Positions 2,959-4,956 of a stretch of 64,000 nucleotides of DNA are shown here, piece after piece. The notes below the pieces were generated by a model. It was not told where the DNA came from. It saw only the letters and a program-made list of their open reading frames with translations, and did not search any database. Origin of the DNA: Spirochaetia bacterium (GTDB taxonomy: Bacteria > Spirochaetota > Spirochaetia > Treponematales > Rectinemataceae); assembly GCA_029975555.1 (NCBI GenBank), contig JARKOY010000173.1, positions 62,001 through 126,000 of the forward strand. Reading direction: 5' to 3'. Numbering within the stretch: the stretch's first letter is position 1; each line of letters opens with the position of its first letter. The position numbers were made by a program, and so were the translations under genes.

Positions 2959-4956
2959 ATGTCGTCTGAAGAAATTCGGCTTTGTGCAATCATGCATGCG
3001 GAGATCGCCAACCCAGATACACTTCTGTCGCGCGGCACGCAAGAGGCGCTCGCCGCCTTTGCCCAGTTCCGCGACGCTGTCCGCGCTGAAAGCGAAGCCA
3101 AGGGCGGCAGATTTCTCGAGTCGCTGCGCGGAGAAGCCATCGCCATCTTCGACACATCGTCTTCCGCCATCAACGCCGCCATCGAGATTCAAAAGAAAAT
3201 AGCCCGACATCTTCAGGCGAAAATAGGCATCAACGTAGGAGAAATCCTCTTCACCCAACATGGCGCGATCGGAAGCGCGGCAGACATTGCGGAAGAGCTG
3301 GTGCGCGCGGTGCCTTCCGGAGGAATCTGCGTATCGAGCACTGCCCTGCACGCATCCCCCTCGATTCAGGGCAGGACAGTCCCCGTGCGGCTTGAATTGC
3401 CCAACGGAGGAAACATAGAAGCGTTCCGCATCGAAGCGTCGGATGCGCCAGAGGCACAGCAGTCCGAAGCCGCCCCGGCGGCAGGGCTGGCTTCAGAAAA
3501 AAATACGGCGTGTGAACACGGAGCCACGCCTGGCCCTTCGTCTTCCAGCGATGCCCCCGCAGGCGCCCCTCCCCCAGTCGAAGTCATAAGGCGCCAAATA
3601 TTCGAGGAAATAAAAAAGACGGGCAGACGCCCATCGGCGGACGAGGCGTGGAAAGCGTTCGGCAACTACGGCCAGGACGCCTGGGATGTCATCTCACGCC
3701 TCACCGAAGCAGGCGTCATCCGCGATACAAATCACAGAAGACACGCGAGACATGAGCACAGGCACGACGAGGTGGCCGCCCACATCGAAGAGGCAATCTC
3801 CCAAAAAATCTCGGCCAGATTCTCCGAGGGCTTTGCTGCGTACAAGGAGGAGCTCTCCAAGACCGCCGAGAAACTCAGCGCATCGATTATCCCTTCGATC
3901 TTCTCCTTCCTGGGAATCAATGGCCTCCTCTGGTACATCAATGTCACGTATGCACAAGAAACCCCATGGGCCGCTCCCGTCACCGCGATGTGGTTTTTCG
4001 GCATGCTGCGTGGCTTTGCACAGGCAGCCCAGTCGCGCCGCATGGCCCGCGAGGCGGCAGGCATCGCCACCCTCGACGCAGACCAGCTGAAAGAGTACAA
4101 GGCCATCAACAAAGAGCGAACAAAGTTCCTGAGCCGCTTTTTCAGCTTTTTCAGCGTCTCTTCGCTCTTGCTCTTCATCAATCTCTTCTTCTCGCCGCAG
4201 TCGCCGTGGTTTCTCGTTCCTGTCGGTTTTCTGGGAGTGAACCTTCTGGCGCGCTCGATCGAGTACAGGGTGAAGATGCCTTCCAGGATCAGGCGCTTCT
4301 TCCATGCCCTTGGACCGTCCATGGGACGAGTTTCAGACACTTCATCGACGGCTGGCGTACATGCTGCGAATACTGTCCCCTTGGGAGCCTACGCCGACAT
4401 TTACGCCCAGGCGGCGAAAGACGCAGAATCCTGCCTCGATGCATTCAAGAAAATCAGCCCAGACGAGATGCCAGAGGCTGAAAAATCGGTGAAGGCAGGC
4501 ATGGACCAGATTCTGCTTTTGGCATCGACGCTCAACGAGCTGGACGGGCTCATCGCAACCATGCCGATCAAGGAACTCGAAAAAGATCGCGCGGCAATCG
4601 AAGTCAAACGACAGAGCGCCTCCCCCACACTCTCGGCCGAGTACGATAAGAATATCGCCGAGATCGACGCGCAGCTGAAGGCCCACCATTCTCTTCTGGA
4701 ACGCAAAGAGGGCCTCGAACTCAAACTCCACTCGCTGTCGAATCAGTTCAGACAGCTCGCCCTCGACCTCGCCTCCGCGCACGCCGCCGACGCCCAGGCA
4801 AAACTCGACCAACGGCACGCCGCCCTCGAAAAACTCAGCAAGAAGGCAGAGGAAATACGTCTCACCATCGAAGACATGCACACGGGGAGCGACGACTGGC
4901 TTTCGACGGAAATAGAAAAACTTTCCCGGAACCAGGTCTCACAGAACGGAGCATAA
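2959..4956 (+). CDS. Degenerate class III cyclase-like domain, tandem 2TM-like segments and coiled coil
   Basis: A 665-residue protein of unusual layout. Residues 1 to about 140 follow the nucleotide-cyclase fold: a GGRFLESLRGEAIAIF strand pair, an A-x-x-A-A-x-x-I-Q-K helix, a K-I-G-I-N-V-G-E-I strand and a G-G-I-C-V-S-S end. Both metal-binding Asp positions look replaced by Glu (H-A-E-I and G-E-A-I-A), so ordinary cyclase activity is doubtful. A low-complexity linker follows to about residue 205. A helical, winged-helix-like segment runs to about 250. Then come two similar hairpin membrane units, near residues 312-355 and 393-437, each like a 2TM domain. The last 180 residues are helical and rich in Glu, Lys and Ala, typical of a coiled coil. 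It could be a membrane-tethered sensor or scaffold; function unknown. Confidence 0.75.
   Translation: MSSEEIRLCAIMHAEIANPDTLLSRGTQEALAAFAQFRDAVRAESEAKGGRFLESLRGEAIAIFDTSSSAINAAIEIQKKIARHLQAKIGINVGEILFTQHGAIGSAADIAEELVRAVPSGGICVSSTALHASPSIQGRTVPVRLELPNGGNIEAFRIEASDAPEAQQSEAAPAAGLASEKNTACEHGATPGPSSSSDAPAGAPPPVEVIRRQIFEEIKKTGRRPSADEAWKAFGNYGQDAWDVISRLTEAGVIRDTNHRRHARHEHRHDEVAAHIEEAISQKISARFSEGFAAYKEELSKTAEKLSASIIPSIFSFLGINGLLWYINVTYAQETPWAAPVTAMWFFGMLRGFAQAAQSRRMAREAAGIATLDADQLKEYKAINKERTKFLSRFFSFFSVSSLLLFINLFFSPQSPWFLVPVGFLGVNLLARSIEYRVKMPSRIRRFFHALGPSMGRVSDTSSTAGVHAANTVPLGAYADIYAQAAKDAESCLDAFKKISPDEMPEAEKSVKAGMDQILLLASTLNELDGLIATMPIKELEKDRAAIEVKRQSASPTLSAEYDKNIAEIDAQLKAHHSLLERKEGLELKLHSLSNQFRQLALDLASAHAADAQAKLDQRHAALEKLSKKAEEIRLTIEDMHTGSDDWLSTEIEKLSRNQVSQNGA

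Follow-up and report, generated by a model that had tools for sequence, protein, structure and literature searches.

The window, a 64,000-nucleotide stretch of spirochaete DNA, encodes a 665-residue protein whose N-terminus resembles a nucleotide cyclase and is followed by membrane hairpins and a coiled coil. Is this protein a working enzyme, a cyclase that lost its activity and was kept for another role, or a remnant? The gene lies on the + strand at positions 2959–4956, in a frame that is open for 665 codons. Its parts follow each other on the same strand as a degenerate class III cyclase domain (residues 1–158, the end being approximate; 2959–3432), a variable linker (residues 159–204; 3433–3570), a conserved three-helix domain (residues 205–258; 3571–3732), a first 2TM hairpin (approximately residues 306–358; 3874–4032), a second 2TM hairpin (approximately residues 391–436; 4129–4266) and a long C-terminal coiled coil (approximately residues 475–659; 4381–4935). 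No whole-length model for the protein was found in Pfam or NCBIfam. An earlier reading made from the sequence only had stated that no described protein is known to have this order of parts; this holds for the families named in these two databases, although the order itself proved to be widespread in Spirochaetota. A search of plasmids gave no match.

To place the N-terminal domain, we used sequence searches together with structure prediction. Residues 3–128 matched the PDB chain 3mr7_A in phmmer at E 4.1e-10; with a profile built from 27 family members the same chain was matched at E 2e-39. An AF2 model of residues 1–160 was built on an alignment of five Rectinema sequences; its mean pLDDT of 63.6 is modest, and residues 121–160 are poorly placed, with values below 50. 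Nucleotide cyclases accounted for all 50 of the 50 matches listed when this model was searched with Foldseek, the best of them at E 1.6e-7. The TM score was about 0.5 for most of the matches and the rmsd was high at about 13 to 15, which may be put down to the poorly predicted tail of the model. In the full-length model, based on four sequences and thus on fewer than the domain model, the cyclase fold is not visible, and the mean pLDDT is only 44.8. The Pfam profile Guanylate_cyc (PF00211) matched the window domain neither at E 10 nor at 0.01, which leaves it below the gathering cut-off of this family; in the same alignment, 22 of the 27 family members were matched at E 0.01. By the phmmer, profile and Foldseek results the domain belongs to the class III cyclases as a fold superfamily, and the computations establish its common ancestry with cyclases. 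The cyclase-like N-terminus proposed earlier is therefore confirmed, and the domain model does contain a cyclase fold within residues 1–140.

Class III cyclases bind metal with two Asp, specify adenine with a Lys/Asp pair and stabilise the transition state with an Asn and an Arg, as described for Rv1625c (PMC4174876). At these six columns intact relatives of the window protein read DKDDNR. The window protein reads EEGGDE, with E15 at the first metal-ligand column (3001–3003, + strand; Asp in intact relatives), E54 at the base-specifying Lys column (3118–3120, +), G58 at the second metal-ligand column (3130–3132, +; Asp in intact relatives), G102 at the base-specifying Asp column (3262–3264, +), D109 at the transition-state Asn column (3283–3285, +) and E113 at the transition-state Arg column (3295–3297, +). 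Judged as an enzyme, the domain thus has neither the two metal-binding Asp, nor the adenylate-type Lys/Asp pair, nor the transition-state Asn and Arg, and the loss at all six positions follows directly from the alignment. The same EEGGDE is common to five Rectinema sequences (G000, which is the genome of the window, G002, G003, G007 and G008). The sequence-only reading had taken both metal ligands to be Glu. This was right for the first, E15; the second is Gly58, with Glu59 one residue later, and the four further replacements (K to E54, D to G102, N to D109 and R to E113) had not been noticed. G58 aligns to the second metal column without any gap, the segment G50–F64 being 15 residues long in either form. 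A Glu/Glu metal site is thereby ruled out, and the idea that two Glu could still hold Mn2+ is weak because the second ligand is not Glu. Since both metal sites and the Asn/Arg pair are gone, nucleotide cyclisation by the Rectinema protein appears very unlikely, and its cyclase domain is very probably catalytically dead.

The membrane part was matched by PF13239 (2TM) in two stretches at E 2.5e-8, with 34.3 bits against a gathering cut-off of 24.8; the second hairpin was matched at residues 385–434. A profile-profile comparison of hairpin against hairpin, run without an unrelated-hairpin control, gave a probability of 98 and E 1.5e-13. Both results support the suggestion that the two membrane units are duplicates of each other. 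Of the two domains that had been proposed for searching, PF13239 was therefore detected and Guanylate_cyc was not. A hydropathy scan missed one of the four membrane helices expected, namely the second helix of the first hairpin, which lies below the threshold. Net charge is positive between and after the hairpins (Lys/Arg to Asp/Glu 8 to 5 and 5 to 0) and neutral on their N-terminal flank (3 to 3). The three-helix domain has helices at 207–221, 227–237 and 239–250 with pLDDT of about 70, is conserved across the family and looks winged-helix-like by eye. Only two parts of the full-length model reach fair confidence. One is this three-helix domain (residues 205–258); the other is the C-terminal helical part, with block pLDDT of 56–82 over residues 501–660, in agreement with the predicted long coiled coil. 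Compared with PDB sequences, the C-terminal module gave only a chance-level match at E 0.74. Matches of the coiled coil to NEMO (E 0.12–0.77) were taken as coiled-coil chance.

We then asked how widely the protein occurs. It was matched in 49 of the 98 related genomes searched, its own genome included. A single-sequence scan of genome contigs gave 4 close relatives only; the profile search covered Spirochaetota, where the C-terminal profile was found in 35 of 392 genomes at E 1e-6, the weakest being short hairpin-region matches. PF13239 was matched by 24 of 25 C-terminal rows, and DKDDNR is present in all eight far members whose N-terminus could be read. Directly upstream of the gene in the window lies an RNase II-family (RNB) gene (947–2884, + strand; PF00773, E 2.2e-58), which is the usual neighbour of the family: of 21 regions, 17 have it immediately upstream on the same strand and one has it 3.8 kb off, and in the other three it was not found. 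In these regions the neighbour is defined as a BLAST cluster, Pfam having been run on the window copy only. The window copy combines RNB with HTH_RNase_II and scores well below the NCBIfam cut-offs for RNase R and RNase II. Domain order, C-terminal homology and locus all place the protein in a spirochaete cyclase-2TM-2TM-coiled-coil family that we define here. That the protein is a paralogue was ruled out by the single match in its own genome and by the conserved upstream RNB gene.

Within this family, the state of the catalytic site goes along with the presence of flagellar genes. Of 30 Rectinemataceae genomes, 19 lack both FlhA (PF00771) and flagellin (PF00669), among them all ten of the genus of the window. 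Where the site could be read in FlhA-lacking genomes it was altered in every case (11/11), with 0 to 4 of the six residues kept; the transition-state Arg was lost in all 11, and metal ligands were retained in some. In addition to EEGGDE, the clade contains AHETDQ (G006), ERDSDI (G028 and G021), DQDDTS (G014), (D)KDEDL (G022) and DKDANA (G020), each of them without the Arg. Both metal Asp are retained in G014, in G020 and, with the first one read by eye, in G022; for G022 and G068 the profile placed no residue in the first metal column, where Asp was read by eye from the sequences. Among the FlhA-bearing genomes 38 of 41 readable sites are complete; the other three are those of G010 and G068, each with one change, and of G056, with two (DKDDVN). 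The rows counted are 49 matched related genomes and 8 far genomes with a readable N-terminus, G080 being included in the 41. Left out were G013, G017 and G092, which lie at or near a contig end and whose N-terminus falls outside the frame read, as well as G046 and G089, where the stretch read showed no cyclase domain. Also omitted from the far matches were G185 and G123, which are truncated by contig ends, G423, which lacks the cyclase domain, and short matches to the hairpins only.

Trees of the C-terminal module were used to count the losses. A tree of 45 rows places the 9 rows labelled as degenerate together on one side of a branch with support 100/99, and one change was found in 100% of 200 bootstrap trees; the long branches G351, G423 and G166 were flagged. 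A larger tree had 57 rows and carried labels for G002, G021 and G056 as well. In it, the 11 degenerate rows that lack FlhA form one set with the unread G017, at support 100/100; one change is required if G056 is not counted and two if it is. As all 11 readable FlhA-lacking genomes with an altered site fall in one clade, the loss in this clade is one event, and its single origin is computed directly from the trees. G056 (L098) is an FlhA-bearing relative outside the flagella-less clade, and with two residues lost it reads on the tree as a second, independent origin of catalytic loss.

The association with the flagella-less clade is likewise a computed result, and the link to flagella as such is a lead, not proof, because the tree shows a single main event, in one clade. 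FlhA is absent in 45 of the 392 genomes of the phylum sample. Among the 28 genomes with a C-terminal profile match above 100 bits, only G000, G006 and G021 are without FlhA. A separate lineage, family f13, has 16 members without FlhA among the genomes listed and no C-terminal profile match; 25 further FlhA-lacking genomes are not listed by name. Flagellated genomes without a gene of the cyclase-2TM family are common, none being matched in family f3 for example, which indicates that the gene is not needed for flagella. Among the 19 FlhA-lacking Rectinemataceae genomes 7 gave no match, 5 of these being less than 90% complete. A general change in lifestyle is an alternative to the flagella link, as the groups differ in genome size and lifestyle too. 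Rectinema cohabitans has been described as rod-shaped (PMC6052044).

Next, we analysed whether selection still acts on the degenerate domain. Nei-Gojobori dN/dS was calculated for the pairs window/L031, window/L032 and L031/L032, in this order below. Pairs with L033 were left out as dS was saturated in several regions; for window/L032, dS exceeds 1 in several regions. The cyclase domain gave values of 0.088, 0.107 and 0.130 and the coiled coil 0.104, 0.075 and 0.099, followed by the three-helix domain (0.255, 0.171 and 0.120), the TM region (0.300, 0.185 and 0.176) and the linker (0.56, 0.68 and 0.24). The former active-site segments, picked by the analyst from the catalytic columns as residues 12–20, 50–60 and 100–116, are invariant at 29 of 37 positions, compared with 46 of 93 elsewhere in residues 1–130 (p 0.003, 5 sequences). 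The cyclase domain is under purifying selection as computed here and is not decaying; frame decay to a pseudogene is ruled out by dN/dS. Low dN/dS and segment invariance together indicate that a dead domain has been kept, most tightly at its old active site.

Based on these observations, the 665-residue protein is probably a catalytically dead orthologue, a pseudocyclase, of a spirochaete membrane-bound class III adenylate cyclase family. It had been suggested to be a pseudo-cyclase sensor or membrane scaffold; the first part of this suggestion has become better supported, by the six lost positions and by purifying selection, and the role as a sensor or scaffold is one that we infer. We lean, with less assurance, towards a retained role of the pseudocyclase domain in dimerisation or partner binding. 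The N-terminal domain would then be cytoplasmic and would pair or bind a partner via its reshaped active-site face, the two 2TM hairpins would anchor the protein with both termini inside, and the coiled coil would dimerise or receive a signal. Flagellated relatives would use this scaffold to switch cAMP synthesis. In Rectinema, where the cAMP output would be gone, possibly together with motility, a signal may be passed, or a complex held, by protein contact alone. As a bolder and less probable history, an ancient membrane adenylate cyclase may have served flagellar motility and been shut off stepwise upon loss of flagella in part of the Rectinemataceae. Its domain would have been re-used: in Rectinema the lost site would have been rebuilt to the invariant EEGGDE, once more under strong selection, and would serve a membrane scaffold for signalling as a surface for binding without catalysis.

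The same genome contains two further PF00211 proteins, one of CHASE2 type and a second one, both on other contigs, as well as two cNMP_binding proteins. In the CHASE2-type cyclase both Asp, the Lys, the Asn and the Arg are in place by eye, with Thr at the base column, so the catalytic loss is specific to the 665-residue protein. Given these four proteins, cAMP signalling as such would not need to be lost. They also allow a different role, in which the pseudocyclase domain is a regulatory subunit that activates or blocks a true cyclase, e.g. the CHASE2 type, by pairing with it; class III cyclases are indeed dimers with composite sites (PMC4174876). We consider this unlikely, as a domain with six positions lost can supply neither half of a composite catalytic site and both candidate partners are encoded on other contigs. 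The strong conservation of the former site would also suit a sensor that binds a nucleotide without turnover, perhaps a guanine nucleotide, since the base columns read E and G. Glu and Gly at these columns favour guanine, and Ma1120 mutants 'KDA to EGY', whose K and D we take to be the base-specifying columns, are among the titles of the Foldseek matches. However, neither the metal ligands nor the phosphate-binding Arg remain (E15, G58 and E113 stand in their place), the acidic residues gained in the site would repel a triphosphate, and the base columns read H/T, R/S, K/A, Q/D or K/E in other members of the clade, which makes such a sensor distinctly improbable. An active cyclase that uses Glu for Asp and Mn2+ could draw on the Glu at the first metal column and on Glu59, which adjoins G58; it is very hard to uphold, because Gly stands at the second metal column in 5 of 5 Rectinema sequences, Glu59 is Gly in R. 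subterraneum and hence not invariant, and the Asn and Arg are lost as well. Least credible is a decaying remnant without function, which the differing degrees of residue loss in the clade, the unmatched (though mostly incomplete) FlhA-lacking genomes and the R. subterraneum copy without its middle third would fit, but not the cyclase domain dN/dS of 0.09–0.13 or the full-length open frames in G000, G007 and G008.

The preferred reading, a pseudocyclase kept for its contacts, builds on parts that are familiar. Inactive cyclases are known, and so are the cyclase fold and the 2TM domain. In Panoptes, the words '2TM domain' and cyclase reportedly both occur; we do not take it as related. The N-terminal domain is homologous to, and matches the fold of, the class III cyclases of Silicibacter (3mr7) and Mycobacterium (Ma1120, Rv1900c (LipJ) and Rv1625c), from which the Rectinema protein differs in that all six catalytic positions are replaced and the window domain has no PF00211 match. 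Both hairpins resemble 2TM proteins (PF13239), whereas here two fused, diverged copies lie between a cyclase domain and a coiled coil. A precedent for a link between cyclase and motility in spirochaetes is LprA of Leptospira kobayashii, an adenylate cyclase described as controlling motility via cAMP (PMC9043183); unlike the Rectinema protein it is active and light-driven, and the likeness drawn here is one of function. In open-licence PMC papers we found no description of a spirochaete cyclase-2TM family, nor of graded loss with re-fixation. The series presented here runs from intact to partly lost to wholly lost and re-fixed, mostly at one conserved locus, and so records a class III cyclase becoming a pseudoenzyme. 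It points to an uncharacterised spirochaete membrane cyclase family whose output may be tied to motility, and suggests that Rectinema has put a former enzyme domain to a new use other than catalysis.

Several family members depart from the full domain order. In R. subterraneum the gene is split (L034:4438–5582), with residues 1–163 and 436–659 encoded in adjacent DNA and the linker and membrane part missing; this may be an assembly fault, since the genome was set aside for contamination (PMC12236494, preprint). The cyclase domain is missing in G046 (L053) and G423 (L086), which keep the 2TM-2TM-coiled-coil part, and G089 (L105; genome 72% complete) keeps the module too, the stretch that was read showing no cyclase domain. 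The module without a cyclase domain in these three genomes, for G089 within the stretch read, indicates that the domain is dispensable in some lineages. Finally, a 127-residue protein of another spirochaete (L088:1235–1615) consists of little beyond two tandem 2TM hairpins, so that the membrane module also occurs alone.
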